Below, in pieces: positions 3,058 through 25,830 of a stretch of DNA of 64,000 bases (its first letter is position 1; every line of letters begins with the position of its first letter). The stretch lies in contig JABSSW010000005.1 of NCBI GenBank assembly GCA_018902385.1, positions 248,001 to 312,000 of the forward strand. Reading direction: 5' to 3'. The DNA is from Physcia stellaris (lineage: Eukaryota > Ascomycota > Lecanoromycetes > Caliciales > Physciaceae). A model generated the notes under the pieces. That model had not been told where the DNA came from, ran no database searches, and was given only the letters and a program-made list of their open reading frames with translations. Both the position numbers and the translations under genes were made by a program.

Positions 3058-3880
3058 AGGCGGAAGGTGACGGGTTGCCAGCACCACGCTTCTATCTCTC
3101 AATGCAGTTGACTGATCAATAATATTTCTGATGAGTTGACAGGCGAAGGATGAGAGAGGCAATTGATGAAGATGGCCTTGGGGGAAGAAGGTTCAAATTG
3201 GAAGGTGGTAGGTGGTTGGCTTGATCTTCACCCTGACTGCTTGGCGTGGTTAGCGTGTTTACAAACGACAACCGGGAGAGTCACCTAGCAACCTAAACCG
3301 AATTCATTCCTAGTAAAAAATACGAGACTATGTTTACTCAACTTAATTGCTTCAGGACTCTATCATACAAAGCCGTCGGTGAGAGCTTTGCTTCATAAGT
3401 ATTCGTGAGTGCAGCAATTATTTGTTACGAGCGCCTTGATGTTTGATTCTATTTGCTGCATGCAGACGTGGCGGCCCTTCACCATTGGCCAGCTTTTGAT
3501 TCACATGCAGTCATGGCCGCCCGAAACCGCATTTTTCAGCTGAGATGCTGCTGTAGTTGCAATACCCTTGAAGACTGGACATTCCGGACAGTGCACGAAA
3601 TTTATATAGAGGATACTATATTATCGGTTGACTTGGATAGCCAAGGTGTTGTTCTCTTTCATGCTGGCGTCCCTGCAACACTTTCGTGGCACCTTCGCAG
3701 AAGCAAGGTAAAGAAAGAATAAAAATGGATAGTTGTCCAGTTTCTGTTGGAGTAAACTCACCACCAAAGGCAATGCCAAAACGTTATTCTGTTATAGGTT
3801 AGCGTGCAAACTCTGTACAATAATTCACATTCATCACATGTACGATAGATATTATTATCATGAATAATAAGCACGTTGCA
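3058..3880. other. 5' region of hex1 and edge of the AT-rich block
   Basis: Normal composition until about 3,850, then an abrupt fall in GC. It should contain the promoter and leader of the minus-strand hex1 gene. An 89-codon open frame on the plus strand (3453-3722) starts with TTG and has no recognisable features, so it is not called. Confidence 0.4.
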
Positions 3881-5549
3881 TTTTACATATTTGTAACAAA
3901 TTATGAATTCGACAATGTTTGTCAAATATCATTCGAATTGATTCATATTATTTTACAACGTTCAAACGTTGATTTCATAAATCGATTGAGAAATTTCTGA
4001 TTGATTAAACGACGATCAAACTCGAAAACATCAAATTGAATTCACAACGAGTTTATCGTCATTTAATGTCGTCAATAAAATGCATATTGTTTATTTTAAC
4101 GATCGTCATTTAATTTCTCAAAGATTCAAAAAATCAACATCGACGTTGATCGATGAAAACGTTATTTATCGTTCAAACGAACGTCAAATTCGAACGCACG
4201 ATCGATTACTCGATTTCGATAAAAACGTTTTCAAAGAGCACGAAATTTTACATACACGATTCGATGATTCAATGAATTCGTTATTGTTTCGAATTGATGT
4301 TTCGAATTCATTTGTTACGAAATGAAAAAAAAAACAAATACGACATGAAATTTACACGTTTTACACGATTTCACGAATCACATACGTTTTATTTTTTTTT
4401 TTTTTTATTTATACGATTCAAATTTTCAAATTCAAACATCACAATGATTGTCAAACATCATTTACAATTTTGTCGTTTTCATTTCAAAATCAAAACAATA
4501 TTTCAATTGAAAAATTGACGTCAGAAATGATTTTCGAGTCAATCATGTTGAATGAACAATCAATTTATCAATAAAATTAATGTTTATCGTCGAATTTTTA
4601 TATAACAAAAACATCGATTGAAATTTCATCGATGCAAAAGCGAAAATCAAAATCACGAATTTCATCATCGTCGTCGAAAAACACGAACGAAATTTGAATA
4701 AAAATTTTTTTTATTTGTTCAACGATGAACGTCAATCATCGTTTTTTTATCATTGTCATAACGAATTCAACATCGTTGATTTATTGAACAAAAATAACAA
4801 AACGTTTCAAGAAGAATATTTTTGTTCTTTTCGTCGATATCATTTTCGATTTTATTGATCGATTCGTTACATTAACAGGCGTCGAATTTTACATCAAAAT
4901 TGTTGAATCATTACACAATCAATTGATTATCGAAAACGTTGATTTTAAATTTATTGTCGACGTATTTTGTCAAAATATTTTGCTGTTCAAAATGCACAAA
5001 TTAGTTCATTTTAATTATTTCGTGATTCGTCAACGTGACGAATGAATTTTCGAGAATACAAATCTCATCGAAATCGAAATTTTTTTTTTTGAATTTCGTT
5101 AAAATCATCATCGATACGATAACAAAATCAAATTCAATTGCATTGATCGTTGATTGTTTCAAAAAATTTAAACATATTCGTTTCAATATATCAAAATTTG
5201 AATACATCGATTTTTTTGCATCAATCAAAAATGCATAAACAACGATTTCATTAAACATGATTTTGAAAAATGCTATTATAATCATTCAAAAGCGTTTTCA
5301 AAAAATGAATTGATAAAAACATGTTTGATCATTTATACGACAAAATTTTGAAAAAAATTCAAAATTCACAATAACAATCAACGTCGTTGATTGAATTTTG
5401 AAAACAAATTTTGTTCATTAATCATTCAATCAACGATATGTTGTGATACACAAATTCGAACGTCAACATTCACGTGTGCAAAAATCGAAATTTGATACAT
5501 TTTTTCATGTTTCACATCGAACATGTTGTAATTGCAAACAAAATTCGTT

Positions 5550-6330
5550 TTATTGTTGAAAAAAAAAATAATCAAATTATTGTTCGTTTTTTTTTACAAC
5601 AATGCAAATGATCAATTTATTAATTTATCAATTTTTTACATGTCAAATTCGTCAGCAAATTTGTTGTCAATATCAACATTCGAAAAACAAAACGTTTATT
5701 GAAACATTGAAAATCACATTTTCAAACATCAAAACAAATCAATCGAGTATGTTTTTGCAAAACAACAAATTATACGTTTTGAAATTGCAATCACATCAAA
5801 TGATTGCATTGTCAACAACATCATTATTGTCGTTTATCGTATGACATCGAAATTTGAATCACATAAATTTTTTTTTTATTACGTCAATATTTAAAAAAAT
5901 TGAATCATTTTTATTAAAACGATTACAAAAATAATCATGCGATGTTTGCAAACTAATCAAAACAAAAAAATCGAATAAAAAAAATATTCATCATGTCGAA
6001 AAAACGTTTCATATTATTCACATTGATTTAATATCAATAACGATCAAAAATTTTGAAAATGAACGTTATTACATCAATATCATCGATGACAAATCACGTT
6101 GAACGAAAATATACATCGTTAAAAACAAACACGAATGATTACAATGTTTTATCAAATACATCAATTGAATCAAACGTCAATTCGATGTTGACGTCAAAAT
6201 CGTACGTACAAATTATGACAACGAATTTCGCAACACGCAATCAATCAATTATTTTAATAATCAAAACTAAATTGATCGCGTCGAATCAAAAACTTGAAAA
6301 AAATCAAAAATTTGATTCGAAAAAATCGAA
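5550..6330 (+). mobile_element. Ty1/copia retrotransposon fossil (integrase region)
   Basis: Plus-strand translation shows pieces matching the pre-integrase and integrase zinc-binding and core regions of Ty1/copia polyproteins. They are a CxxC motif near 5,938, an IIHIDLIS-type core start near 6,015, and RYY and DDKSR-type segments after it. The element is broken in many places and heavily mutated. Only this part is recognisable; sequence from about 4.6 kb may belong to the same copy. No LTRs were identified. It looks old, since mutation is near saturation. Confidence 0.6.
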
Positions 6331-6649
6331 TCAAATTTGAAATGAAAAATTTGAAACTTGTTTTGACGTCAAATTCAAATTTTTGATTTTAATGTCAAAT
6401 TCAAATTCAAATCGACATATTCGATTTGAAATTTGTTTTGACGTCAAATCAAATTTTTTTCTTGAATTTGAAATTTGATTTGAAAAATTTGATTTAACTT
6501 GAAATACTATTGATAAAAAATAATAAAAATAAATTTTATTTTTACAAATTCTATTGAAAAAAAAAATATTACAAGAAATTTTAAACATGAATAATGAATA
6601 ATGAATTTTGATAATGCAATTTGAAAAAAAAAAATTGATCATTATTCAC

Positions 6650-8742
6650 AAACAAATGATAATGTATCATGATAATGCATATTCGTTATTTAATCAAATT
6701 AAAAATCGAACATTATGAAATTTGCATCGTTCGTATTTTCGCTATTTTCGAATTCGTTTTCGTCATCGAAATTTTTCACGCTGTTTTTTTTTTCGTCATC
6801 GTCGTCGTTTTTTGCATTTTTTTTTGATCGCATTGAAAAATTCGATTTTAATATTTCGATTTTTCGCATTGTGCGAAAATGCAAAATTTTTAATTGTTTT
6901 TCGCATTTTTTTCATCGCGTCAACAAAATTCGTCGTTTTCAATGCGCGAATTTTTATATTATTATAAAAAACGCGTTGCGCGATCAATTTCGTCATTAAA
7001 TACAAATATTTTTTTATTGCGTTTTGCGTTCGTTCAATGTTTTCATCGTTTTGAAATTAAAATGAATCATTAATGAAATCAACAAATTTTGATATTCAAT
7101 ATTCATTGATTGTTGCGAAAATTCGAAATTAATTGTTTGACGTATGATTTCGATTGCATTTTTTTTGACATCGTTTTGTCGTGTTTGTTCGTCGAATTTT
7201 TTTTTGTTTTGTCGATAAAATTCATTTTTCAAAAAACACGTTAAAAATTAATTAAAAATCGCAATTTTTATATGCATTATTCGATTGCATTATCATGATT
7301 GTCGTTTTCAATACGAACATCGAACATTTTTTTTTTATCATTTTTTTTCATAATTTTGCGATTTTTTTCATCAAATTCAAATCAAACAATAATTTTTATC
7401 AAATTTTTTTTGAATTTGAACACAACGACATTGTCGACATTTTGTGTTTTGTAAAATTTGATTTGAATTTTCGATCAATTTTTTTTTTTCGCGATTAACG
7501 ACATTTTTTGAATTCGTCGAATAAATTTTAACAAATGTAAATTGTGCAAATTCGAACATTTTGATGATAAATATCAACACGATAATGCGACAAAAAAATG
7601 CATTATTTTTGAACAATGTTCAAAACGTACGTCGAATATAAATCAATATCAATTAATCGATAAAATTGAAAACAAATTTGTGATTGAATTCATCAACAAA
7701 CGTGTTGCGATAAACAATTGAATCATATTTAAAAACGAAAAATAAATCAAATTTGAAAATTCAAATTAATGTTTATTCGTCAAATTTGTGAATTTGTGTG
7801 CAATGAAATTGATTAACATCGATAATGCGATATAATCATGCATTCAATTTTGAAACGAAAAATAACGAATATTACACACGAAAATAATCAAATTTGACAA
7901 ATGATTTATCAATATCGAAAAAAAAAAAATTGAAAATGTTATAAAAAATCGATCGAAAATTGTCGATACGCGATTGTTGCGTTTTTATCGAAAAATTTAA
8001 ACGTCGAAATTAAAAGCAATATTTCGATGCAAAAATCTAATCAAACATTCAACACGATCGCATCGATATTTTCGCAACGTTTGCAAATAATGCAAATCTG
8101 TCTGTATCGCGAAAAAATGAATTTATTGATTGATGAACAACAATCGATTCATCGTATGTTTAATTTTGTAATTAATGACATTTCTATTAAATTTTCATTT
8201 GTAACAACATTAAATCAATAAAATAATGCATGAAAATAATGCATAAATTAACGAAATTAAAATATTTCGACGTTCATTCAAAATTTAAAAATTTTCAAAA
8301 CGTTCAATCAACAATTGTTATTGCTATAACGATGAATAAAAACGATGAAAATATTGTAAATTTGATATTTCAACGAAAAATGTGAACATTGATAAAAATG
8401 ATAATGTAAAAAAATAACGCATAAATTAACAAATGATAAAACGTTTTGTAAAAAATTGCATTGTTTGTTTCGTTTTCAATCAATATTTCGTCGATCAATT
8501 GAAACGTTTTTGCGAACGTTGTTCGAAAATTTAAGTCGAAAATCGTTGCTGAAATGTTTATTAAATTTGCTAATGATAAAAAATTTGAAAAAACGCAAAA
8601 TGATAAAATCGTTGATATTAATAATCATAATGATTTTTCGTTTTGTAAATCGAATAATGCATAACGATAATGCATAAATTAACAAATCATCGCAATTGTT
8701 GAAAATAAAAACATTCAAAAAAATTCGAAATATCAACATAGA
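6650..8742. repeat. Repeat unit A, copy 1
   Basis: This stretch matches 12,150-14,230 over its whole length. For example, 7,295-7,450 and 12,790-12,945 agree at roughly nine positions in ten by eye, in the same orientation. Its protein content is not recognised; an acidic minus-strand frame ends near 6,700. In copy 2, unit A runs straight into unit B. Here it stops at about 8,742, where unmutated DNA begins. Confidence 0.8.
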
Positions 8743-8814
8743 ACACAACCTATAAAAAAATATCTATCGTTTCCTCTACAAAAAGTTTACTTCCTTATTG
8801 GGTTAGACCAATCT

Positions 8815-8945
8815 TGGCGAAGAACATCAAATTTTGGTGCAACTTTTTTACATTGCACACCAACCAAGAACTTGATATGATTTTTGTTTATGTAGTCAAA
8901 GTTGTAGAGTTTAATGAGGGGAATCCAATACTGTAACGTTTGTTA
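8815..8945 (+). repeat. Direct repeat, left copy, within the insert
   Basis: Alignable with 10,725-10,885 in the same orientation. Shared landmarks include TGCACA-CAA-CA, ATTGTAGAG or GTTGTAGAG, AATGAG and ATTCCAAT or ATCCAAT. Both copies translate to related peptides (LHTNQ here, LHINQ in the right copy) that end at a stop at the same place. This suggests a duplicated old coding tail rather than a simple repeat. Confidence 0.55.
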
Positions 8946-9019
8946 AATTCTGACGTGGGCGCATCGAGTTATTGAAATGCGGATTTTGATCGCATACAAA
9001 TTGATGGATTCGGGGTTCG

Positions 9020-9835
9020 ATGATCCAAACACCAACAACAACATCAACTTCAACTCCATATCAACTCAACCACGAGAATTTCAACGAATCCCAACAAATC
9101 ATGCAGCTGACGTTGGATTTAGGCCTTCCTACTACGGCGCGTTCGCGTGGTGCAGCAAATCGCCATGCCAAAGAGCGAGAGAAACGGGGTGCTCTCCAGA
9201 AACTTACTCCTACTTCTACGTCTACCTTTACTTCTGCTGCTGCATCGATCGAAATCAGCGCTCCCTACGAATGTCATTCAATGACTGTTACACCTCAAAC
9301 ACCCGTCGAGTTTCGAGAGCCTCACTACACAATCAATGGCCGAAATGGAATGACGTTGGATAGACAAGAGCCTGGAATCTATCCGGTCCCACAGCCAGCT
9401 ATTATTCAGGAAATGACTAAAGCACGTCCCATGTTTGACGTTGCATTCGATGTTTCAAAGGTTAAGACAATACGCGTTCTCAATAACGTGGAATCACAGC
9501 AAAAACTGCTGCAAAAGGATCAGGAAGCTTGGGAGGGTCAGATCTTTCAATACTTTTGGCGATTGGAACGATCTGAAATCATACGAATCAATGGAGAACT
9601 TTTTTCGGATCTCGAATATCGGTTAGGACTGTCTGGAGGGGCTTTGTTTCAAGAGCATTTTCGTTTTCAACCTTGGACGGAGCGTTCTGTATGGAGTGGT
9701 TATGCTCATTGCAAATTCAAGAAGTATTTTTCTCCTCTTTCTACGGCTGTTCGAGCCAACGATGAGGAGAAAATTCGCTTGCATATGAGGGAGGAAATAG
9801 TCAGACATAGCAGTCGTTTTCTTTCAAATCGTTGA
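9020..9835 (+). CDS. Orphan protein of the insert (unknown function)
   Basis: A 271-codon open frame with an ATG start. The first ~90 residues are rich in Thr, Ser and Gln, with a short basic stretch (RHAKEREKRG) near residue 50. The rest is a mixed charged and aromatic globular-looking region containing WEGQIFQYFWRLERSEIIR and EEIVRHSSRF near the end. I recognise no domain, signal peptide or membrane segment. Base composition is ordinary and unlike the mutated repeat around it. Downstream open frames (9,851-10,561) are likely its continuation through introns or a frame break. It could be the cargo of a mobile element or a captured host gene. Confidence 0.5.
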   Translation: MIQTPTTTSTSTPYQLNHENFNESQQIMQLTLDLGLPTTARSRGAANRHAKEREKRGALQKLTPTSTSTFTSAAASIEISAPYECHSMTVTPQTPVEFREPHYTINGRNGMTLDRQEPGIYPVPQPAIIQEMTKARPMFDVAFDVSKVKTIRVLNNVESQQKLLQKDQEAWEGQIFQYFWRLERSEIIRINGELFSDLEYRLGLSGGALFQEHFRFQPWTERSVWSGYAHCKFKKYFSPLSTAVRANDEEKIRLHMREEIVRHSSRFLSNR

Positions 9836-9850
9836 CGAAATACGCCTGCA

Positions 9851-10561
9851 ATGCGATGCAAAGAAAGAGATGGAAACTTGATCCTCCACACAATATCCCA
9901 ACCCCGAAGAAGCTCAACTTGCAAAGGATATCAAGCGGGCGAAAAAGGCGAACGAAAGAGTGAAAGCGGAGGCAACAAGAATAGGGAAAAGCATTCAGCT
10001 TGGCCAGACGAGCCGGACGATTCTGATGAGTCGGACGATACATATATGACCGACGAATCGATCGATTCTGACAATCGTTCTGACGACGACGAGGGAGTGC
10101 AATGGAGCGAGTTGGTTGAATTGAGAACCGAAGCAGACGAGCATAAATGGAAGCAAAAAAGAGAGCTTTACTCGAGTATGCCATGGTCGATATAACCTCC
10201 ACGAATTGCCCTCTTCAGGCCGAATCGACCTCCACCAAATGCCTTATCAAATGCTCCACCGAATGCTCCACCAAATGCCTCAGCAAATGCCTCACCGAAT
10301 GCCTCACCGAATGCCTCACCGAATGCCTCACCGAATGCCTCCATGCGCGGATCACTTCCGCAGGCATACACCGATGCAAAGACTGCAGATTCGAGCTTTT
10401 CGAGCCTTAATAAGCCAGAAGACCTCGCTGGAGAAACAGGCCCGATTTGTATGGCATATTCTCGATATCTCTGCCGCAGATGGCCAGGCCAGTCAGAATT
10501 CTGGGACCAGCATATGTACATAGTATCCAGAATGGCCAATATCAGGGCAAATCTATCCTGA
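9851..10561 (+). pseudogene. Probable 3' continuation of the orphan gene, frame not resolved
   Basis: Three consecutive plus-strand frames each look coding in part. About 9,895-10,010 gives a Lys/Ala-rich helical stretch (PEEAQLAKDIKRAKKANER). About 10,000-10,195 gives an Asp/Ser-rich acidic stretch (DEPDDSDESDD). About 10,215-10,561 gives an Asn-Ala-Ser-Pro repeat followed by an ordinary globular tail ending at 10,561. No single frame or clean set of introns joins them, so either several small introns or frame-breaking indels are present. Confidence 0.35.
10256..10341 (+). repeat. 12-base coding minisatellite
   Basis: About seven tandem copies of a 12-base unit, CACCGAATGCCT. The last four copies are essentially identical and the first three are diverged. 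A multiple of three keeps every frame open, giving an Asn-Ala-Ser-Pro repeat in the likely coding frame. Slippage expansion is the simplest explanation. Confidence 0.8.
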
Positions 10562-11215
10562 TACCCTATTGCGCTATACCCAATCGAGAACCATGATATG
10601 CTTCGAAGATATGGTCAAATGACTGCAATTTCTGCAGTTCAGACTCCATGCCTGGCATTGAGACCCCCAGTTATGGACTTCAGATTTGCGGCACTCTTTC
10701 CCGATTTAGCTAGCTCAGGGTCTACTAAATGGCGGCCAACCACCAAAAATGTAGTTTGTTGTTGCAGTTGATTTACAACCTGCACATCAATCAGCAATCA
10801 AGTATAATTTCCACTTATCTAGCCAGGATTGTAGAGCAGAATGAGCGCATTCCAATGCTGCAAAAATAACAGAAATCGGTTCATTATCGCAATAGTTCTG
10901 GGGCTTGAAAGGTCATGCTAGAAATGTGCCTGTAGAACAACTCCGCAACAACGCCTGCGAAGCAACAATGCCATATCCACCATAACTCAATGCGCACTCG
11001 CTCGATTTTCGATATTTTGATTCTTTGAATAGTACTCACTTCGTGCTTCAAAACAAGCCTTCGAGTGTATGGTTTACTTACTGGGTTAAGAAGCTATTAA
11101 GGTGCGAAATCGATGAGATCGCAAGGGACCCTGATTTCGTAATCTTATCAGATTTGACCCTAACCCTAAAGTTCTCGACAAAGTTTTTTAAAAAAACTTC
11201 CGGGCCTACTTGTTT
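10562..11215. other. Non-coding right part of the insert
   Basis: It holds the right direct repeat (about 10,725-10,885), which contains an open peptide ending at a stop near 10,871. It also holds two head-to-tail CCCTAA units (11,157-11,168), identical to the usual fungal telomere repeat, and a perfect AAGTTTTTT/AAAAAACTT hairpin near 11,185-11,202. No gene is supported. Confidence 0.4.
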
Positions 11216-12150
11216 CAAATGTTTGAAAATCGAAAAAATGTCGAAAACGATGAATCGAATGAAAAAATATTTGATGAAAATGAAATCAAAATTGTTCACA
11301 AATTCGATATTCATGATATTGTTTATTCATACTGAATTCGAAAATGATAATCAAATTTCAAATAAATCGAATAATGCGTCAAAATAATGCACAAATTCAC
11401 AAATCGAAACACGCGTCATGAAAAAAACAAATCGACAAATGAATGATGACATTGATATGAACAAAAACAAAACGTCGATCGAAAAACGACAAAAAATAAA
11501 CATGATCGCGTTCAAATTTTTCGCGTTCAAATTTTTTGCGTTCAAATTTGTCAATAAATCGAACAAAAAATCAATCGCAAAACGTTTGAATTCATTAATT
11601 AAAAAAAAATCGCGAACAAATCGATAATGTATTCAAATTATGCGTTATCGAATATTGATTAACATATCAATAAAAACACAAACGAACAAAATTCGAAATA
11701 ATCGCATTGCGCGAAATCAAACGTTTTCAAAAAATCATTGAATTTTTAATTGCAAAAAAATCGTTCGCGAAACTTGTGAAAAAAATGATGCAAAACATAA
11801 AAAAAATGTCAAAATTCAAATATCGATTTTTGAAATTTTACAAAAAAATATCAAAACGTTTGTCACAAAAATGTTTGAAAATAAATCAAATACATTATTT
11901 TTGCGCATTATTTTGTTGATTAATTTTTATGAAATGATTAATGCAAAAACGATTCATGCGAAACGAATGATTGTTCAAATAAAAATATTCATTTTGTTCG
12001 AAAAATTTTGAAAATGTTTATGAATAACAATGTTTCAATCATTTAAACACAATGTTATTTTTGTTGAATAATTAATTTACATAATTTGAATTCGTGTTTG
12101 AATTATTTTTTATATCAATATTTGTCACGTGAATTGAAAATTAAATGATA
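11216..12150. repeat. Repeat unit B, copy 1
   Basis: Matches 14,230-15,270 in the same orientation with an offset of about 3,050-3,110. It contains three tandem copies of a ~14-16 base unit, GCGTTCAAATTTTT, at about 11,508-11,552. Plus-strand frames are Lys/Phe-rich after mutation and not recognisable. Confidence 0.75.
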
Positions 12151-14230
12151 ATAAATGATGATAATGTATTTTCGTTATTTAATCAATTTAAAAATCGAAC
12201 ATTATGAAATTTTTATCGTTCGTATTTTCGTTGTTTTCGAATTCGTTTTCGTCATCGAATTTTTTCACGTTGTTTTTTTTTCGTCATCGTCGTCGTTTTT
12301 TGCATTTTTTTTTTGATCGCATTGAAAAAATCGATTTTAATATTTCGATTTTTCGCATTGTGCGAAAAAACAAAATCATTAATTGTTTTTCGCATTTTTT
12401 TCATCGCGTCAACAAAATTCGTCGTTTTCAATGCGCGAATTTTTATATCGTCATAAAAAACGCGTTGCGCAATCAATTTCATTATTGAATACAAATATTT
12501 TTTTATTGCGTTTTGCACGCGTTCAATGTCGTCATCGTTTTGCATTTAAAGTGAATCATTAATGAAATCAACAAATTTTGACAAATTTTGACATTGAAAA
12601 TTAAATCGATTGTTGCGCAAATTTGAATTTTGTTGTTCGACGTATAATTTCGATTGCATTTTTTTGTATCGTTTTGTCGTGTTTGTTCGTCGAATTTTTT
12701 TTTATTTTGTTAATAAATTTCATTTTTCAAAAGCACGTTAAAAATTAATTAAAAATCGCAATTTTTATATGTATTATTCGATTGCATTATCATGATTGTC
12801 GTTTTCAATACGTGTATCGAACATTTTTTTTTTATCATTTTTTTCAAAATTTTGCGATTTTTTCATCAAATTCAAATCAAACAACAATTTTCATCAAATT
12901 TTTTTTGAATTTAAACACAACGACATTGTCGACATTTTGTGTTTTGTACAATTTGATTTGAATATTCGATCAATGTTTTTTTTTTTCGCGATTAATGATA
13001 TTTTTTGAATTCGTCGAATAAATTTTAACAAATGTAAATTGTGCGAATTCGAACATTTTGAATGTAAATATCAACACGATAATGCGACAAAATAATTCAT
13101 CATTTTAAACAATGTTCAAAACGTACGTCGAATATAAATCAATACGAAATGATCGATAAAATTGAAAACAAATTTGTAATTGAAATCATTAACAAACGTC
13201 ATACGATAAACAATTCAATCATATTTGAAAACGAAAAAAAAAAACAAACGTGAAAATACAAAATAATGTTTAATCGTCAAATTTGAAAATTTATTTGCAA
13301 TAAAATTGATTAACATCGATAATGCGATATGATAACGCATACAATTTTAAAATATTCACAACGTAAATGATAAAACGAAAAATAACGAATATTAAAAAAA
13401 AAAAATAATCGAATATGCGAAATGATTTATCAATATCAAAAAAAAAAACTGAAAATGTTATAAAAAATCGATCGAAAATTGTCGACACGCGATTGTTGAC
13501 ATATTGCGTTTATCGAAAAAATTTAAACGTCGAAATCAAAAACAATATTTCGATGCAAAATATTTAATCAAACATTCAACACGATCGCATCAATATTTTT
13601 GCAACGTTTGCAAATAAAACAAATTTGAATCGCAATTTTTGAATTTACTGATTGTTGAACAGATTTCGATAAAACGTATCAACAATTTTATTGAATATTC
13701 ATTTTGACAATAATAAATAAATAAAATAATGCATGAAAATAATGCGTTGATTAATATTAATTAAAACATTTCAATTTATATTCAAATCACAAAAATTGAA
13801 TTATGTTTTCATCAAATGACATCGATGTCATCAATTTCATAAATCAATTTTTTTAAATGTTGTCGATTTTCAAACAAACACTGAAAATAACGAAAATAAT
13901 ATTGATAATAATTCGAAAAATGTTCAAAACACGAATAAATAATAATGCATTAAAATAATGCATAAATTAACAATTTTCAAAATTTATGTTCGCGAAAATT
14001 GATTTGTTTATTTCGTTTATAACGAATATTCAATCGTTCAAATTTAATGTTTTGAAAAACGTGATGCGAACATCTAAAACGACAATCGATACGAAATTTG
14101 AAAAAACGAAAAATGATGAAATTATTGATTCAATAATAATATCAATAATAATAGTAATTTTTTTTTGATAAATCAAATAATGCATTTAAAAATAATGCAT
14201 AAATTAACAAATTATAACAATTGTTAAAAA
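12150..14230. repeat. Repeat unit A, copy 2
   Basis: Second copy of the 6,650-8,742 unit. Differences between the copies are mostly C/T or G/A, and many lie at CpA, TpG or CpG positions. CpT and CpC are depleted in both. Unit A passes directly into unit B here. Confidence 0.8.
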
Positions 14231-15270
14231 TACGAAAATTTCAAAAAAGTTCGCAATGAAAACGATTTAAAAATTTGAAAATCAAAAAAATGTCGAAAAC
14301 AATATTTCGAATGAAAAAAATTTGATGAAAATGAAAATTTGAATGCAAATCAATTCAATGATAATAGTTTTGACGATAATGAAACGAATGACGATAACGA
14401 TATTCGAATTTTGAATAAATCGAATAATGCGTCAAAATAACGCACAAATTAACAAATCGAAAAACGTCGCATTGAAAAAAACAAATCGACGAATAAATAA
14501 TAATATTGATGTAAACAAAAACAAAACGTCAATCAAAAAATCACAAAATTGATTTTTTATCGCGTTCAAATTTTTCGCGTTCAAATTTATTGCGTTCAAA
14601 TTTTTTGCGTTCAAATTTTTGCGTTCAAATTTTTTGCGTTCAAATTTTTGCGTTCAAATTTGCAATTCAATCGAACAAAAAATCAATCGCAAAACGTTTG
14701 AAATTATTGATTAAAAAAATGACGAACAAATCGATAATGCATTCAAATCACGCGTTATCGAATATTGATTAACACATCAATAAAAACACAAACGAACAAA
14801 ATTCGAAATGATCGCATTGCGCGCGAAATTAAACGTTTTCAAAAATCATGAATTATTAATTGCAAAAAATCGTTCGCGAAATTTGTGAAAAAAATGATGC
14901 AAAAACATAAAAAAAAATGTCAAAATTCAAATATCGATTTTTGAAATTTTGCAAAAAAATATCGAAACGTTTATCACAAAAATGTTTGAAAATAAATCAA
15001 ATGCATTATTTTTGCGCATTATTTTAATAATTAATTTTTATGAAATAATTCATCAAAAAACGATTCATGCGAAACGAATAATTTTTTCAAATGAAAAATA
15101 TTCATTTTGTTCGAAAATTTTGAAAATGTTTGTGAACAACAACGTCACAATCATTTAAACACAACGTTAATTTTGTTGAATAATTAATTTACATAATTTA
15201 AATTCGCGTTTGAATTTTGTTTTTCAAATCGATATTTGTTATGAAATGAAATGAAAATTGAATCGATTAA
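14230..15270. repeat. Repeat unit B, copy 2
   Basis: Second copy of the 11,216-12,150 unit. It ends in a stretch homologous to the end of copy 1 and then enters the TA-rich desert rather than a third unit A. Confidence 0.75.
14563..14665 (+). repeat. Minisatellite in unit B copy 2
   Basis: Seven head-to-tail copies of a 14-16 base unit, GCGTTCAAATTTTT. The matching place in copy 1 (about 11,508-11,552) has three copies. The array has therefore changed copy number since the tandem duplication. Confidence 0.8.
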
Positions 15271-16790
15271 CATTTAAAAAACGCGAAATGTCAAATTATG
15301 TATGTATTTGACGATTTTGTTTGTCGAATCATCATCAAAATCATATCGAAATTGAAACGAAAACAAAATTTTTGTCAAATATGACGTAACAAAATATCAT
15401 CAATTTTCATATTTGTTCGCATTAAATTATATGCAAAAAAAGCCCATAATTGATTTCGATTTATAACAATATTTCATGAAATAATAATAATATGATAAAT
15501 GATTTTTTTGTCAATTTTGAACAATACATTATATCATTATTTTTCATTTTAATTTTTGAATTGTTAGAATTTTATTTATGTTTTTCAAATAACGCAATAT
15601 AAATATAAATTTTAATTTTTGCATTAAATTATTTTTGCGAAAAAAAAATATTAAATATCGAATTATTCGAATATTTAATTTTTCAAAAAATCAAAAATCA
15701 TCATAAATAAAACAAAACAAATGTTCATAATAACAATATTTGTTTTTTAATAAAATTGAAATTCATTTTCGATTGTTGAAAACAAATAATTTTAATACAT
15801 CGAAATGAAAAATAAAAAATAAAATATCGATTTAAAAAAACGATTTAACGAAAAAATAATAAAATATTATTCGATTAATTTCGTATATAAATTAAAACAA
15901 CACGATTTGATATATTATTTCAAATATATTATATATGTTTTATATAGAACAATATATATTATAAATTTTATTATAAAATCATTTAAAATTATGAAACATA
16001 TATTATTTATATTACAATCATAAATTTATAATTATATTATTATTTTATTATATTTTATATTTTCGTTTATATGATTAATAAAATGAAAATTTTTGTAATT
16101 TTATAATAATTTATATATAATATAATATTGAAATGTCAATTCATATTATTTCGTACGTTTTTATTGTGATTATATTTTCATTTTATTAATTGTTTAAATT
16201 ATTGTATGTTAATATTTTAATTTCAAATTTGTATTTTTTAAAAACAAATAATTTGTATCATATATATGTTTGAATTTGAATTGAAAAAACGTTTATATTG
16301 AATTTCAAATTTCTAATTTTAAAAATGTATTTCAATTAAATTTTAATTTTTTCAAAATTCGAATATAATTAATATCAATATTCGTTTTGAAAAGTTTCAA
16401 TTGATTGAATTTTTCAATAAAAAAATTTATGACATTAATTTCTATATACGAACTAACATGTTCAATAATTTTTTAATTAATTTAATATTTTTGTTTTGAA
16501 CAATTATTCGTTTTGCATGAATAATTAATTTGTTAACAACTAATAAATGTCAATAAAATTATGATTTCAAAATTCGAACAATTAAAAAAAATATTTATTT
16601 TCGAATATATCAATGACATAAATTTCGATTGTTTTTTGTAATGTTTTCAAAACATTTGTTTGAATTCGCATTTCGACATTTTGATCAACTATTTCAAACA
16701 AAATTTTTCGAATCACTCGTTGAAATGACAATTTTGATATCATAAAATCAATCGATTTTTGATATTTTCGAATTTTTTAAAAACGTTCAA
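15271..16790. other. TA-rich desert
   Basis: The most AT-rich part of the window. Unlike its neighbours it is rich in TpA, with long ATATAT-like stretches around 15,900-16,080, and it has few CpG sites. No element, repeat or coding remnant is recognisable. It may be older or may have had a different starting composition. Confidence 0.6.
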
Positions 16791-16799
16791 TCGCGTTTT

Positions 16800-19700
16800 G
16801 TTTTTGATTCAATAAAAATCAATTTGTGCGAATCAAATGCATTATCAATATGCATTATTTTTTTTGATTTCGATTTTTTGTTCGAAACATTATTCGAAAC
16901 AATTTTACGCGAAATTTCAAAAACGATCAAATCGATTTGAGAATTTTTTTGTTGAATCACAAATTTTTTTTTTGCGCGAATTTTTTTTTCAACATCATTT
17001 TCACGATTTTTATTTCGTGAATTTTTAATTCGTTTATTCACGACTTTTTTTCGCGAATTATTATTGATTTGAAATTGATCAATTCGTTTTTGAATCGTTA
17101 AAAATGCGACGATGTTTTCGTTCGCAACAATATCGTTAAATTTCGATATTTTTCGCGATTTTCGATGCACATCATCAATATTTTTTTCGAAATTTTCAGC
17201 AAACGAATTGATTTTTTTCATTTTTTTGTTTTCGACATCATTCAGAGATTTCGTGATCATGATATTTAAAAATCATTTTTCAATTTTTAATCGTCAAATG
17301 CATTACTATCAAACATTATTTCGATTCATTTTATCGATGATTTTTTCGAAATTTTCAACAAACGAATTGATTTTTTCATTTTTTTGTTTTTGACATCGTT
17401 CAAAAACATCGTGATCATTGTATTTAAAAAATCAATTATTAGTTTTTAATCGTTGAATGCATTATTATTAAACATTATTTTGATTCATGTCATCGATGTT
17501 TTTTTTTTGTTTTTTGTTCGTGTCATTCAATTCAAATTTTAAACATTTTTTCAAAATCGAAAAATCGATATCAATTTCGTTTTTCATGAATGTTTCATCG
17601 TTTCGCGAATTGAAATTTTCAATTTCGAAAATGTTTGAACTTTGAAAATGTTTTGATAAATTTGTCGTTAAAAAATATTCTCGAACAGATTCTGTTGTAT
17701 TATCAATAATATATTCAAACAATAAAATGAAAAATACAAATTTTCAAACTTCATAGAATTCATGTTTGTTTGCGTTACGAGATAATCTATCAAATAAATT
17801 ATTAATAATAGATTAATTAAAATACTAGAATGAAAATTGAAAAAGAAAAAAAAAAAAAAAAAATCAACGTTTATACGACTCGAAAATTAAATTTTGCAAT
17901 TATATGCGACTATGCGCAATCTAATTAATACTTTCGATGTTTTGATTGAATGCAAATAGTTTATGCATTATTTGTTTGCATTATCGATGATTATTGCAAA
18001 TTTCATTTCAAATCGTTTATTATTAAATTTTGAAATCATAAAACGAAACATTTTTTCTATTGAACGACGAAAAGCATTTTTCATCGCAATTTCATTATTT
18101 TCGTTCTTTCATCGTTTTATTAAATTTCAAATTTTCGAAACAACATTTTTAGATTTTGCATTCATCGTTCGATTATAATATTTGATCATCATCGTTTTTT
18201 CAATCGTTTTTGATTCAATATTGCTCGATCATATTTACAGATTCGACGTGTCAAACTGAAAATTCGCTTCATTTTTATCGATGAAACAGAACAAAACAAA
18301 ATATTTTTCGTCATTCGAATCAATCGAAAAAACTCGAAACATTATCGTTTCAATATTGTCAACTAGAATTTTTTCATGATTGATATAAAAAATAACGTTC
18401 GATTTCGTTTTGTGACTGTTTCGATTTTCGATTCGATCGCAAAATCGAATTAATAAAAAAATTTATTGTTTTGTTAAATTGAATTTCAATGCATTATTTT
18501 GATGCATTATCTTTTTATCGAACGATTGAAAAATAACGCGTTGAAAATCATCATATATTTTGTCATCATAATGATTTCGATAGTAATTCAAAAATCGTTT
18601 ACGAACGTCATTGATATACGCATGTTTTTTTTTTTTTGTGATTTTTTCGAAATTGTTATTTTCATTTCAGATTTCATAAATCGATAGTTTGTTGATTGAA
18701 TTTAGAATATTAACAAAATCGTATATCAATTCATCATCTTTCTTTGTTTTCGCATAATATTTGAAAAACTTTTGAATGACTTTCGCACAAACAGTCAAAA
18801 TTAATGATTTGTCGAAACATTGACTTTGTCGTATCGTTTCATTGAGATAATTCAAATGATCGTATAAAAAATTGAAAACTTTAAGTTCAATTTGCACATT
18901 AATGTTCGTGATTCGTGAAACAATCAACGTGATTTCGTAAAATGTTTTTAACATGTTTTCGAAAAATAGAATTTGATTTCAATCATCATCAAATATTCGA
19001 ATTTTGACAATTTTGACATCGTTGCGATTTTTTTTTAAATTCATTTATCAACGAATCGTCGAAATTGATAAACACGTCGTATCATAAAATAGCAAAAATT
19101 TCAACGAATCTTGACATTCTGTTTCAATTTTCGAGAACGTTTAATTTTTTTTTTTTTGTAATTTCACAAAGCGAATTTTTCGTTGCGAAAAAAATTGATA
19201 ACAATCGTCAAAACACGAATCTGATTATTTTGTTAACAAACGCATTACTTTTTTGCATTATCAAACTGATTTATTTTTTTGACGATTTTTGACATTTCTG
19301 TATTTTGTTCGATGTCATCGATTTGATCATTTTTCAAATTTTGAATAATATCATCGCTAATAATTTCGATTTCAATCGAATTGATAAAATTCTGTGCGAC
19401 TAAATTGCACACATGAATTAAACAATTCATGAAATTTTGATTTACATCTCAACTAATGCTCATTTCAATCATCGTTAAATTCAATAATTGTTTGAAAATG
19501 CGATTATTGAATGCATTATCAATCGTGATCGTCATTAGTTTTTCTGTTATTTCATAAAATTTTAATATTGACAACAGAAAATTTAACATTTTTTTCGTCA
19601 TGACAAACATCTAACGAAACAAAGTCGATAAGTTTTTTTTTTGATATTGAAAATTAATATTCATTCAATATATTATCACATCTAAATAAGCGATTTTTTG

Positions 19701-20760
19701 TTGATTGAATCAAACATTTAACGAAATAGAAACTCGATCAACATTTTTCAATTCGTCTCTCAATTGATCACGAATTTCTTCATAATTTTTCGTTACAAAT
19801 TGATTTAATTTGATGCGATGTGATAGTTTCAAAATGAATCGACTCATTTTCAAACATATTCGAAAATGCTCGTTCTCGATCGTTCGATAAGAAAAATCAC
19901 AAACAATAAAGATTTTGATTAAATGCTTTTCAAAAAATTTCTCGTCGAATGTTGCACGAGAATCGAGTTTGCTTTTTTTCTAATAAAAATAAATAAATGC
20001 ATTATCAACATGCATTATTCAACAAATTTATATTGATATTCTCGAAAAATTCGATTATTTTTTGAAAATCAAACGACATTGTTCGATTTTTTTTTTCAAT
20101 TATAAAACGATATTTTGCGCTTTTCAAATGTTTGTTCATGACGTTGATGTCGTCATTTGCGCTTAACGAATGTTGTTGAACTTTATGACATGTTTTACAA
20201 ACAATCATTGATGTTTCGTCAAACATTTTCGCTATTTGAACAAATTCTTGTCAACATGAAGCAATTTTATCTTTCTTGTTCGATCAATGTGAATTATTGT
20301 ACTTTGTTTGAATTTTGTTCAAAATATTTTCATCAAGACTGATCTGTTTTCATCATTCTAAAAAAGCATTCGAATTTTTCTTTTTCAAAATACATATTTT
20401 TTATTGCTATGAAAACTAAAATCAGAATGTTTTGTTCGAAATTCTTTCGTCAATTTGATTATCTGATTTTGACGATTATCAAAAACTGAAATTATCGATG
20501 ACTGAAATTTGTGATGATTATCAAAAACTGAAATGATTGATTGCTGAAAATTGTCAATTGACATATCGTCATCGTCGTTCATGATGAACGAGTTTTCTAA
20601 ATCTTGAATTGAAAACGAAAAAAAACTCGAAAACAATTCGAAACTCGACATCTTATCTGACATTTGAATAGATGATAAAGATAATGCAAAATGATAATGC
20701 AACTTGAAGCACTAATTGTATATAACACGAAATCAAATCTCAAAATAATGCACAAAAATA
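16800..20760 (-). mobile_element. Decayed hAT-family DNA transposon
   Basis: Read on the minus strand, a BED-type zinc finger appears near 20,220-20,100 (CKTCHK followed by NKHLKS). A hAT core segment (CLIHVCNLVAQ) lies at 19,430-19,245. A segment near 18,954-18,667 matches the hAT pattern of LDHL followed by KYYAKT, IYD and KLSIYE. The order fits one transposase read leftwards. All pieces lie in different frames with stops between them, so the gene is dead. Mutation is less saturated near its 5' end (19.7-21.2 kb). Terminal inverted repeats were not found. The family call rests on motif order and is moderately secure; exact ends are not. Confidence 0.6.
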
Positions 20761-20989
20761 ATGCAAATATGATAATTGCAATTGTTCGATGAAAATCTTG
20801 AATCAAAAAATAATATAGTTCAAAAAATAGTAAATTGTCGAAAAGAATTGATAATAATCTCGAATACAAAATAATACTATGATTATCACGTTTGATTTAT
20901 ATGAAATAATGCAAAAAAAAAGTTCGAAAACTCTGAAAAAAAACATTTATAACTAGTATCAGAAATATCGCGAAATAATGTAATACGTC

Positions 20990-21240
20990 ATGAAACTAAA
21001 ATTCTTGACGAATCAAATCAAGTTCGACATCGAAGCTTGAAGCTTGATTCAAATTCAAATCAAATTTTCACATTTTGACTTGAAATTTGATTCAAGCTCA
21101 AATCTTTTAACGTGTCAAAAACTTGAACTTGACTCAAGCTCAAACTCAAGTCGAGATTTTCAATTTGCAAATCGAATCAAATCGACGCATTCGAATTTGA
21201 AGCTTGACTCGACGATCAGTCTAGATCGATGATTGTAAAA
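20990..21240. repeat. Degenerate CAAGCTTGA/CAAATTTGA-type short repeats
   Basis: Many short direct and inverted copies of strings such as AAGCTTGA, ACTTGAA and CAAATTC. A more mutated stretch of the same kind lies at about 6,300-6,500. Both may be subterminal repeats of the same kind of DNA transposon; the copy here lies just outside the 5' end of the hAT element. Confidence 0.4.
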
Positions 21241-24200
21241 TCATTTTTTTTATCACGAATCGTATCGAAAAAATCGAATCAAAAAATTTTTTTAATGCAA
21301 TTTTCAATGAAAAAAAACATGTTTTCGTTATGTTTGTACAAATAATTTTTGACGAAATAAAATATTTGAATAACGTACATATCGAACGACAATCGCAAAT
21401 CGATTTTGCTTTCGCGAAAATGAAAAAAAAATATCAAAAATTTTTTATTCGAAATTTTGAAAAAATTCGTTGACATAACAAATAAAAACAAAATATACGA
21501 ATTATTTAATCATGAATTCGACGATCACGCAATAAATTTAAAATCGAACAAAAAATTATCGTATAAATTTATTTACGTATTGTTCGAAAACGAATTCAAA
21601 ATTTTGCGAACATATTTGAATAAACATTTGAAAAACGAATTTATTCGATTTTTCATTTTTTTTGCGAACGTTTCAATTTTGTTCGTTAAAAAAACGAAAT
21701 TTTACGATTGTGCGTAAATTACAAAAATTTTAATTTTTTAACGATCAAAAATAAATATTCTTTATCATTAATCGATGAAAATTTGAATCGTTTAAACAAA
21801 ATTCGCAAATATACAAATTTTGACATGATAACGATTTACAATCGATTTCGTATTAAAAAAACGAATGAAAAACAACGTTCAAAACACGATACGAATATTT
21901 TGAATATATCGTTATGTTTTTCGATTTCATTAATGTATTTGCAACGTTTCAAAATTTCGTTAACAAAATTTTGATCGAACGATTAAATTTGTCGATCATT
22001 GTTTATTTGAACGATATAATTATTTATTTTAAAAACGAAACATAATACGTCGAAAACGTCAAATGAATATTAAATCGTTTAAAAAACACAAGTTTTTTTA
22101 ACATGAAAAAATGTAAATTTTTCAAAAATAATATCGAATTTTTGAATTTTATCGTTTTATCGAAAAAAATGCAAATGCAACAAAACAAAATCGAAATTAT
22201 ACAAAATTGATTTGTATTCAAAAACGTGTTCGAAATTTTCGAATTTTTCGAATTGTGCAATTTCTATAAACGATTTATCAAAAATTTCAATAAATTGACA
22301 TTATTTTTGATTTTCATGTTAAAAAAATCAACAAAACTTCATAAAAAAAAAAAAAAAACGAAATCGAAATAAAAATCACAATAAAAAACGATTATCGAAC
22401 GAATTTTTGATTTTCGAAATTTTCGAATCATTCAAACGATTACGCAAAACGTTTATAAAAATTTTTGTTTTGTAACATTTCGATTCGATTAAATTCATTC
22501 GCGTGAAAATCGACGTTTCGAATAAAACAATAAAAAAAATATTTTGTCAATTAAACGACAAAAATCATTAACATTCGATAATTTATTTTTCAAAAAAAAT
22601 GATATTCGCGAAATGTAATCATAAAATTCACGACAAAAAACTTTTGATTATAATTTTCGCATTTAAACATTGACGTCATTATTTGAAAAAAAAGAAAAAA
22701 CAAATTTTCGTTTTGACGAATTATCGAAATTTCAATCGTTTCATAATTACAACAAAATTATTATTTCGACAAATACGATAAACACAAAAATTGTTACGTT
22801 ACAATTTTGTTATCGATTAACGTTTCGACAATAAAAATTTTGCGAACGATTTGTCAAAACGATTTGATTACATAACGATCATTAAAAATAAAATTGAAAA
22901 TAATTTTCAAATTTTGACACGTTTGCGACAATTTTTACAAACGAATTCAAACGAATTTTCGATTTATGTAAACGAAATCAAAACAACGATATTCAAATTC
23001 AATGAAAATAAAAATTTCGCGTGCGAATTTCTTGAAAAAAATGAAAAAATTTATTTTTCGAATGATTTTTTTGACGTTTTAAATATATCAAACATGATTA
23101 TCGACGAGTAAAAAACATTAATATTAAATAATGCAACGATTTTCGAATCGATCGACGAAATAATTGCGCGAAAACATATTAAAAAACATAATGCGACATA
23201 CGAAAATAAAATTATTAATATTTTTGTCGAATTGATTTGTTCGTTGTAAAAAAAAATCTTTGTGCGATTCAAATGAAACAAAAATTAATTATTTTTGAAA
23301 AATTACATTCGTTTTGAAAAAACGAAAACGAAATATTATGACATAAAAGTTGTTTGTACGTATTATCGAATTTGAAAAAAAAACGTCATAAAATTAAATC
23401 ATAACAATTTTTTCGCAAATCATTTCGATGTAATACGCATTTTGAAATTCATACGACGAAAATATTATTAATCGAACGAAAAAAAAAATTTCAATATAAT
23501 TCAAATATGCGAACACAAATAAAAAAATATTGCGAAACATATGCAATTTGCAAAAAAAACAAAACATTTCGTCATAAATTATATAAAAAATTATCGTTTT
23601 TTTTATATCGAAATTCAAATGAATTGACATTATTATGAATTTCGTGACAAATTTATTCGAAAACAAAACATGAAACGAAACAATATATAATTTAATATTC
23701 GTTGTCGTAAATCGTTTAACGAAAATAATACATTATATTTCGATCAAAAAAACAATAATCGCAAAAATCTCGTCGAAATATTGATTCGAAAAATCATTAA
23801 ATTTCATGATTTTTTTATCGATAACAACAAACAAAAAATCGATTTTTATTTCGAAATATCACGTCGTTTTATGTTATGTTTTAAAATCAAATTTAAATTA
23901 TTTACGATTTATTATTCGCAAACAAATGATCAAACGAAACGTCAAAATTCAATCATAAAACAATATTTCAAAATTTTTGTCAATTTTCAACAAAATAATT
24001 GAATAAAATTATTGTCGATGATTGAATTCGTTTATAACAATAATAAACATACGTTTACGCAAATATCGTTTTTTGAAACAATGCAAAAATATATTTCGAA
24101 AATGTTATTCGAAAAATTTGTAAATTTCAAAATTAAATCAAAATTTGCAAAAAAAACATGTCGAAAAACTGATTGAATTGATGAAAATATTAAAAATTAA

Positions 24201-24700
24201 TTTAACACAAACACAAAAACAACAAATTAAATACAAAAATACAAAAACAAAAATAAAAAATTTCGACGTAAAAAATTACGTCAATGTCAACGACAAAAAC
24301 ATTCGTATCAAACGCAACAAAAAATTCGAATAAAAATTTTTCGATTTATTCAAAATATTCAAAACAATAAAAAATTAAATATATCAATTCGAAATATTTA
24401 AACGTTGACGAATTTATAACGTTTTTCACGTTTCGTTGCTGAAAAAATCAAATTTAAAAAAAAATTCGTTAAAATTCACGTATCAATCGAATATCGAAAA
24501 TGACGAGAAATTCACGAACGAAAAATTCTGAATTGAAATCATTTTGAACAACAAAATTTATAAAAAAATCAAATTTCGAATAAATTATACAATAAATCAA
24601 AATTTTATTATTTGATTCAATGAAAAAATTACGAAAAACGTATTTGAAAATCAATTGCAATAATTAAATATTTAAAAATATGTTTCGAAAATTTCATATG
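21240..24700 (+). mobile_element. Ty3/gypsy chromovirus-type retrotransposon fossil
   Basis: Plus-strand pieces occur in the canonical pol order: reverse transcriptase (from about 21,460, with YDCA/MCVNYK and the following YSLSLIDE region), then RNase H and spacer, then integrase zinc-binding and core regions (about 23,400-24,010), then a C-terminal part (about 24,145-24,335) and a chromodomain-like segment (about 24,500-24,680). The element is broken in many places and strongly mutated, so it is old and inactive. LTRs and gag were not identified with confidence. Confidence 0.8.
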
Positions 24701-25830
24701 AATAATTCGAGAAAAAAATGATATTAACAAAATTATCAATTATCGACGCGTTCGACGTCAAATAAATGTAATTTTTACGATGAAATCGTTAACAAAAAAA
24801 TTCAATTTTCACACGTAATTCAATGTTATTTATTGTTTAAAATTTACGACGCATAAAAAGTTAAATTGTATCAAAAATAATTTCAAAAATTGTTGTTCGA
24901 TCTGATTGAACGACGAATAAAATGTGAAATGAAAAAAAAATCAAAAAATTTTTCGAAAATTGATATATTGAATGCAATCGCGATTACAACGTTTTTCGCG
25001 TTTAAATATTTTTTTTTATAATTTCGATATACAAAAAAAATAAAAAAATAAAAATTAATTCGAATTCTAAATTTATTGTCAATTAATTAATTGTCAATTA
25101 TCAAATCAAAAATCATAATTTGTACGAAATCGAATTTTCGATTTTAAAAACAACAAATAACAAAATTATCAATTTTTTTTTTAATTATTCAAAAAAACAT
25201 TTTCAAATTTTTAACGCAAATTGATTAAAAATCGAAATAAAAAATATTCAAATGCGAAAATCACGATGACAATAATTTTTCAATTCAACGATTTTAAATG
25301 CGAAAATCGCGATTACAACGATTTTTCAAATTTCAAAAAAAAAACATATTTACACAAATTTAACGAATTTTTATTGCGAAACATGTCGAAAAATGTTGAT
25401 TATTTCAAAAAATTTCGATGTTAAAAAAACGCATGTAAAATATTCAAAATTCAAATTAACAAAATATTGCGAATCGAATTTCGATAAAATTATATTAAAC
25501 AATTCGATAAATCACGAAAACGATCAATTTGATCACGTCAATATCAAATTTTCGATTGAATTCAACGAATTTATATTTTCGAACAAATTTCGAAATGTGT
25601 GTACGATTAAACAAATTGATTGATTATATGAACAAAAATTTGAAAAACAATTAATTTTGCAATTATTAATTTAATTATACAATCGTTTTTGTTATACATT
25701 TTGATATCACATTTTTGAATTTTACAAATAAATAGAAAAAATTAATCGACGATATTATTGTTTAACAAAATTTTTGTTGTGAATGTTTTTTGCATAAACG
25801 ATGTTCGTTGATCGAATCAATCATCAAAGT
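24700..25830. other. Mutated repeat sequence of unknown type
   Basis: AT-rich with the same dinucleotide pattern. Two plus-strand frames at 25,221-25,623 contain Cys and His residues in a polar context, but no family is recognisable. GC content and CpT/ApG return from about 25,800. Confidence 0.4.

Follow-up and report, generated by a model that had tools for sequence, protein, structure and literature searches.

Loss of cytosine before pyrimidines in repeated DNA of Physcia stellaris: a RIP-like signature with a reversed 3'-neighbour preference

The stretch of DNA analyzed here (hereafter the window) comprises 64,000 nucleotides from the ascomycete Physcia stellaris (contig JABSSW010000005.1, positions 248,001 to 312,000, of the assembly GCA_018902385.1, which holds 44 Mb in 147 contigs). 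Two AT-rich blocks occupy much of its left half, and in both of them cytosine has been lost almost exclusively before another pyrimidine (CpY, i.e. CpC and CpT, read as RpG on the opposite strand), leaving near-saturated relics of CpY>TpY change to which no strand is assigned. Block 1 (3880-8790) retains two CpC, one GpG and a total of 53 CpY/RpG in 4.9 kb, and block 2 (11180-25830) four CpC, two GpG and a total of 221 CpY/RpG in 14.65 kb, its longest run free of GpG extending over 14,628 bp and its longest run free of CpC over 10,387 bp. Between them lies an island (8790-11180, likewise without assigned strand) of normal GC content (45-48% at 9-11 kb) that is free of the signature; an initial annotation of this DNA, which had drawn a single interval at 3880-25830, was therefore correct for the two blocks but not for about 8.79-11.18 kb. 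The left-hand edges of both blocks, at 3.8 and 11.2 kb, are sharp to about 200 bp. On the right-hand side, the signature of block 1 ends within 100 bp at 8.7 kb although GC takes 400 bp to recover, and block 2 fades out gradually at 25.8 kb, across about 400 bp.

The composition of the blocks was assessed over 4001-8700 and 11301-25700, with the expected counts calculated from base composition. CC occurs twice against 293 expected and GG once against 229; CT (153 vs 869), AG (98 vs 835) and TA (1321 vs 2801) are depleted as well, while CA (1244 vs 944) and CG (967 vs 259) exceed expectation. Compared with the normal flank of the same contig, the blocks hold virtually the same density of CA (65.1 vs 66.5 per kb) and CG (50.6 vs 50.7), a somewhat lower density of TG (53.8 vs 70.5), and very little CT (8.0 vs 63.5) or CC (0.1 vs 55.4). 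Over 4001-8700, cytosine before a purine (CpR) amounts to 239 per kb and CpY to 9 per kb. The TpA/ApT ratio, which classical repeat-induced point mutation (RIP) would raise, is not elevated (0.48 vs 0.65 in the flank). At the finest scale, the counts made by hand in the initial annotation proved exact for 22,801-23,040 (CpA 14, CpG 17, CpT 1, CpC 0, ApG 0, GpG 0; a stretch that, read on the plus strand, has at least 40 matches in the genome at 76-100% identity), for 12,361-12,480 (no CpT and no CpC) and for 22,801-22,860 (three TpA and six ApT), and its central observation, that cytosine is lost before T or C and retained before A or G, holds in the window and beyond it.

Direct mutation rates were obtained from transposon families in which mutated copies could be compared with a reference, namely the gypsy-type L013 and the copia-type L043, each the single survivor of normal GC content in its family, and L044, which is itself already partly mutated. 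Against L013, C>T changes in 11 mutated copies affect 4232 of 4338 CpC (.976), 3925 of 4554 CpT (.862), 302 of 4335 CpA (.070) and 135 of 4013 CpG (.034), with reverse T>C changes at most 3.1% and transversions at cytosines 0.2-0.6%, so that the loss of CpG is not above the T>C background and that of CpA only slightly above it. Against L043, the corresponding figures for three copies are 1306/1380 (.946), 1021/1250 (.817), 95/1434 (.066) and 58/1266 (.046), with reverse changes at most 3.9% and transversions 0.6-1.8%. The third family, with 12 copies scored against L044, exhibits the same order (CpC.968, CpT.828, CpA.072, CpG.025). The order CpC>CpT>CpA>CpG is kept in all 14 copies of the L013 and L043 families, which bears out the earlier division into a fast, saturated CpT/CpC class and a slow CpA/CpG class and at the same time refines it, as CpC is faster than CpT. 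In these families, which are samples of the genome, the main mutated context is not CpA (302/4335, against the far higher CpC and CpT counts given above), the site at which classical RIP would be expected to act first. RIP in the wide sense, a near-exclusive C>T/G>A change far above transversions, is on the other hand what the gypsy family displays (CpC.976, transversions 0.2-0.6%). The altered 3'-neighbour preference that had been suggested thus stands by comparison of intact and mutated copies, whereas for the enzyme, which had been thought of as either a deaminase or a methyltransferase, we can only name candidates.

The 5' base carries little weight: rates at NCC range over.965-.978 and those at NCT over.822-.866. 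Among CpC sites, CCC is slightly lower (.909) than CCA, CCG and CCT (.976-.988), and across the L013, L043 and L044 families the slow loss of CpA is higher before a pyrimidine (CAC.119, CAT.097) than before a purine (CAA.042, CAG.047). An unrelated cytosine deaminase acting on single strands (AID/APOBEC-like or other) and attacking repeats would produce C>T changes on both strands and in bursts; however, sequence contexts of AID/APOBEC enzymes lie 5' of the cytosine, and here the context is almost purely 3'. Moreover, we found no APOBEC_N match in the genome, in a search that had no positive control (its 14 controls were prokaryotes) and covered no other deaminase families. We regard such an enzyme as a very improbable source of the pattern.

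Intact copies of the mutated elements have normal CpY, as do the normal flanks of the window contig, and the intact pairs L014/L015 and L046 with L047 and L058 reveal no context bias. These latter elements have long open frames and differ from one another by about 3-5%, and they coexist with more diverged relatives, many of which carry TGA stops.

A low GC content could in principle arise from AT bias or from biased base calling, and this is all that speaks for an artefact of composition or assembly. We mutated the flank sequence in silico and compared the products with the blocks. Context-free C>T change down to about 24% GC gives CC 14, CT 45, CG 13 and TA 125 per kb, which does not resemble the blocks, and the flanks and intact element copies keep normal CpY; thus simple AT bias, which the initial annotation had named as the control to be run, is rejected as the source of the CpT/CpC depletion, and we consider an artefact of either kind hardly credible. 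Mutation of CpA alone yields TA/AT of 1.74. By contrast, simulation at the rates measured in the families comes close to the blocks for CA (64 vs 65 per kb), CG (48 vs 51), CT (9.2 vs 8.0) and CC (0.6 vs 0.1), and fits less well for TG (67 vs 54) and TA (54 vs 69), a misfit that agrees with an additional slow loss at CpA/TpG. Methylation-driven deamination at CpG was also rejected, CpG being the best-kept dinucleotide.

The same features render the blocks invisible to the usual RIP thresholds (TpA/ApT of at least 0.89 and (CpA+TpG)/(ApC+GpT) of at most 1.03): TA/AT is.41-.50 and the substrate index 1.54-1.56, and none of 127 RIPper-style bins across the window is RIP-positive. The expectation that standard indices would partly miss the signature was therefore right in direction and understated in degree. 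By these indices, as by direct comparison of the families, classical CpA-type RIP is rejected. In order to look beyond the window we divided 101 loci, a set that is transposon-rich by design and partly overlapping, into 533 half-kb bins. None of the 375 bins below 40% GC passes the RIP thresholds, and 7 of the 158 bins at or above 40% do. Bin GC correlates closely with CpY (r 0.977) but little with CpR (r 0.236), and 330 of the 335 bins below 32% GC hold at most three CpC+GpG. Of 20 one-kb samples taken on a hand-set grid from 20 contigs, six are AT-rich and all six are CpY-depleted, the remaining 14 being normal; near-saturated mutation may perhaps affect about one third of the DNA of this genome.

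The island and its surroundings allow the course of the process to be followed. Block 1 contains a partial first copy of a repeat, unit A (6654-8731, plus strand), which is 80.7% identical to the matching part of a second copy in block 2 (12143-14257, plus strand), and two further parts of unit A (11214-12146 and 14266-15263, both plus strand) are 80.9% identical to each other. Unit A, queried with 7001-7400, has at least 40 matches in the genome. Among the matches listed there are 14 pairs spaced by 3.02-3.10 kb, whereas the pair in the window is spaced by 5.49 kb; for this reason we read the island as a young multi-copy element that would have been inserted between two copies of unit A. Its sequence (query 9101-10900) has 41 matches in the genome, of which 15, the window included, are at 98% identity or more, and the element has remained untouched by the mutator despite being repeated. 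It contains an open frame of 275 amino acids without a Pfam match and a 12-bp tandem repeat at 10233-10341.

Eight other island copies, chosen across the range of identity, form a series of stages. L094 (99% identity) has no C>T change and L095 (98%) has one. L097-L099 (91-94%; for two of them the alignment covers just 1.2 kb) have no clear bias, with CpC.018-.058, CpT.038-.049, CpA.008-.020 and CpG.011-.043. L096 has lost 23 of 171 CpC, 8 of 221 CpT, 1 of 243 CpA and 6 of 184 CpG; L100 stands at CpC.965, CpT.540, CpA.033 and CpG.044, and L101 at.970,.910,.083 and.060, respectively. This series indicates that CpC is mutated before CpT. In L096, 20 of the 23 CpC hits fall at 1513-1800 (the last 290 bp), on both strands, inside a part (1408-1800) that recurs in many short matches of higher divergence.

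Transversions number 17-37 in each of the six diverged copies, irrespective of how much C>T change it carries. These data bear on a slower alternative, in which repeats would be methylated at CpC and CpT by a DIM-2-like enzyme of non-CpG specificity and the 5-methylcytosine would then deaminate spontaneously, in a clock-like manner. Such a gene is present (see below), DIM-2 is described in a review as methylating mainly non-CG sites with CpT preferred (PMC13297926, in the part available), and the losses of CpA are higher in the most mutated copies (CpA.203 in L072). However, decay of this kind would tie the load of C>T to divergence, while island copies with 17-37 transversions (two of them, as noted, with the shorter alignment) span everything from almost no change at CpY to 97% at CpC, and CpC saturates at about 2% transversions. 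Because the C>T load does not follow divergence, hypermutation events are favored over slow deamination; the process looks burst-like, as in RIP, rather than clock-like, and we consider the latter improbable.

A relic of ribosomal DNA (rDNA), L073 (C41:45899-46052 and flanks), provides a mutated sequence with a known ancestor. Its 5.8S match is the single one scored for this assembly, and it seems that intact rDNA is either unassembled or unscored. The relic was scored against the Rfam consensus wherever the consensus base and its neighbour are both upper-case, leaving aside positions 454-635 of the large-subunit (LSU) model, which have no conserved letters, the small-subunit (SSU) model before 1491, where the alignment is doubtful, and part of the LSU. 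All 28 CA and all 36 CG are kept (four further CG cells fall in gaps), while 28 of 31 CC and 20 of 36 CU are changed.

The specificity of the process leaves its mark on coding sequences. It follows from the genetic code that a single CpY change can make a stop codon from TGG alone, giving TGA. Within RVT_1 matches we counted 250 TGA, 33 TAA and 3 TAG (150 matches listed, 10 of them stop-free), within RVT_2 matches 401 TGA, 101 TAA and 3 TAG (137 listed, 4 stop-free), in both cases for the best candidates only, and within the 10 DDE_1 matches 44 TGA, 3 TAA and no TAG (one stop-free). In the six reading frames of the AT-rich blocks, taken at random, TGA and TAA are about equally frequent. When stops were mapped to the codons of the intact copies, TGG>TGA accounted for 86 of 95 in gypsy copies and 36 of 42 in copia copies (122 of 137 together), and CAA or CAG had become a stop three times in each. 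CpY mutation thus generates stops mainly via tryptophan, removes TAG and leaves CAA, CAG and CGA mostly intact. TAG is almost gone from the blocks as a whole (1.2-1.9 per 1000 six-frame codons; flank 10.8), which is what conversion of ApG to ApA would lead to.

The homologues of RID, DIM-2 and Masc1 that the initial annotation had proposed to inspect are present: a PF00145 profile search of the genome returned three loci, on C3, C5 and C6. The C3 protein has the motifs SPCQ and LENV (ENV triad), its closest solved sequence is 9bap (E 2e-181), and it carries DUF7893 and a weak BAH match below the cut-off; it is predicted to be DIM-2-like. C5 (PPCQ and LEQT) and C6 (PPCQ and MEET) retain PCQ, and their motif VI reads EQT and EET, respectively, instead of ENV, a combination characteristic of the RID/Masc1 class. 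The pieces of C5 and C6 that were scanned have no BAH domain, and no profile other than PF00145 matches them at an E-value of 0.01 or lower. As to the target-recognition region, which is short in the RID/Masc1 class, the profile covers C5 at positions 2-160 and 254-322 and leaves a gap between them; the second piece of C6 has no Pfam match on its own, and the genome search joins C6 over 2-323. This match spans two TGA codons, both in stretches with GT-AG ends, which we read as introns, so that both class I genes, C5 and C6, would have open frames. One genome therefore appears to hold, at L009, L011/L012 and L010, two RID/Masc1-class genes (EET, EQT) and one DIM-2-like gene. By their distribution, such genes, together with those for HET domains, point to Pezizomycotina. 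C5-methyltransferases read the 3' neighbour of the cytosine, as these mutations do. The strongest candidate for the writer is a RID/Masc1-class C5-methyltransferase. EQT or EET marks the Masc1/RID group, with EET found in Botrytis and Pseudogymnoascus, in the available text of the Podospora RID paper (PMC6709928), and for Botrytis, Sclerotinia and Magnaporthe a connection has been drawn between CpT signatures and RID-class genes (PMC4352252, likewise in part).

It is also conceivable that the mutating enzyme is the DIM-2-like one rather than a member of the RID class, as in Neurospora, where RIP of older repeats can proceed without RID and stops only when both RID and DIM-2 are removed (PMC11969663, in the portion at hand). 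The gene with its ENV triad is there, and the CpT preference reported for DIM-2 methylation matches one half of the pattern. However, the same review describes DIM-2 as active in all CpN contexts (PMC13297926), while here CpG and CpA are spared and CpC is fastest, and we therefore find this rather unlikely.

Taken together, these observations make it probable that the signature results from a repeat-directed, burst-like and RIP-like C>T hypermutation with CpY specificity, in which the 3' neighbour is read in reverse. In the copies compared, and on both strands, nearly all cytosines before C have been converted, followed by those before T; few have been converted before A, and before G the level does not exceed background, with the 5' base of little weight. 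The affected DNA that we examined is multi-copy, comprising several reverse-transcriptase families, DDE_1 elements (judged by their stop spectrum) and the rDNA relic, and up to 97% of CpC is converted against 0.2-1.8% transversions at these cytosines. The mutated stretches that we queried are multi-copy and the flank of the window is normal, but many young repeats are untouched. The writer would be a RID/Masc1-class enzyme with the C5-methyltransferase fold that prefers CpY to CpA and targets duplicated DNA, probably during the sexual cycle; we infer that this specificity resides in the product of either the EQT or the EET gene.

Several observations weigh against this reading. The preference for CpA, the hallmark of classical RIP, is the reverse of that observed, and as it fails we do not file the process as classical RIP. 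Conversion of CpT has reached only about one half (20/36) in the rDNA relic, and in the lightly hit island copy L096 only CpC stands out, CpT (.036) being above neither CpG (.033) nor the CpT of the unmutated L097-L099. At least 15 near-identical island copies and a few intact copies per transposon family are untouched, from which it follows that the process is episodic, limited by sex or now idle, and is not acting on every repeat now. Of the strand coordination that a single RIP cycle would leave, only weak signs were found: sharp patches are absent, and just 2 of 26 copies are unequal between strands at p<0.01. These are L022 and L026, with residual CpT per strand of 26/186 vs 63/262 (p.008) and 63/189 vs 47/264 (p.0002), respectively, and their inequality might be a trace of strand-wise action. 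Finally, the triad would not by itself explain the specificity, since Botrytis has an EET-type RID (PMC6709928) and, in the accessible text of PMC4352252, a mixed CpA/CpT signature.

The RIP of Neurospora crassa resembles the process proposed here in the near-exclusive C>T/G>A change on both strands, in its targets (transposons and ectopic rDNA), in the presence of RID-class and DIM-2-like genes and in the AT-rich relics. However, the order reported there is CpA>CpT>CpG>CpC (PMC5496416, from the part available, as with the other reports cited below), whereas here it is CpC>CpT>>CpA>CpG, TpA is not raised, the standard indices are negative, and stops come from TGG>TGA and hardly from CAA or CAG. 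Strong CpT signatures are known from Botrytis cinerea, Sclerotinia sclerotiorum and Magnaporthe oryzae (PMC4352252), Colletotrichum truncatum (PMC6180176) and Anisogramma anomala (PMC10998396), and RIPCAL comparisons showed CpT changes to be dominant in repeats of Neurospora (Tad1 in PMC2621366) and of other RIP-capable fungi (PMC2621366, PMC7882544). In these cases CpT>TpT is prominent, as here, and even predominant in M. oryzae and in one B. cinerea strain; the species treated in PMC4352252, as well as A. anomala, are reported to carry RID-class genes, the Botrytis one being of the EET type (PMC6709928). They differ in that a CpA signature accompanies that of CpT in the same species (by family in C. 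truncatum), that CpC is not reported as the main target in the available parts of these papers, and that most index values for the families of C. truncatum and A. anomala are still RIP-positive; in P. stellaris, by contrast, CpC leads and CpA is left almost intact. Trichoderma reesei, in which C>T changes appear in sexual progeny with a preference unlike that of Neurospora, has CpA about equal to CpG, then CpT > CpC (PMC5496416), so that CpC comes last there and first here. The bias in transposons of basidiomycetes and Tuber, tied by the authors to DNA methyltransferases (PMC4352252), likewise consists of C>T changes in repeats, but its main target is CpG, the context best kept here.

A survey of 1,239 fungi published in 2025 describes a preference for CpA as shared by RIP-like defences (PMC12543289), and the present genome is a clean counter-example. 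We found no description of CpC-first or CpY-only mutation in the open-licence literature of PubMed Central, subscription papers lying outside that scope. CpC-first, CpY-specific hypermutation would be a new form, CpT signatures and RIP itself being already known. As this genome shows, neighbour specificity, which is often used to detect RIP, can be inverted. It is possible, though we would not yet call it probable, that the code of RIP is evolvable to full inversion, with a RID-class enzyme, perhaps the EET paralogue, using CpC and then CpT and being nearly blind to CpA and CpG; since such mutation is invisible to indices of the TpA/ApT type, some fungal genomes that such indices class as RIP-negative may be heavily hypermutated. 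The EQT and EET paralogues offer a natural pair in which to seek the residues that read the 3' base.

Among the minor features of the window, a relic at 21261-22926 (no strand assigned) resembles L018, a gypsy-type locus bearing RVT_1 (64.6% identity over 1688 bp), and a piece at 5838-6267 on the plus strand resembles L044, a copia-type locus bearing RVT_2 (80.9% over 434 bp). No Pfam profile matched any of ten pieces without stops from the window relic above the cut-off, so that the assignment to transposons rests on DNA similarity to these two loci. The initial annotation had further argued from the tandem copies of unit A, which were said to differ mainly at CpA/TpA, TpG/TpA and CpG sites. 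This is true if only C/T transitions at sites with matching neighbours are counted (115 of the 132 found in two long alignments) but not overall, as 221 of all 353 differences in these alignments are of other kinds; a third tandem pair (188 bp) has 9 differences at CpA/CpG, 5 at CpT and 14 others, and the argument is weak. The CpT sites named there as 6,741 and 6,780 lie, by letter count, at 6,742 and 6,781. The genes of the flanks encode eIF5A-like domains (1616-2506), a HET domain (37558-39513), a cytochrome P450 (43407-44201), a SET domain (49338-50495) and an MFS transporter (52414-53946).

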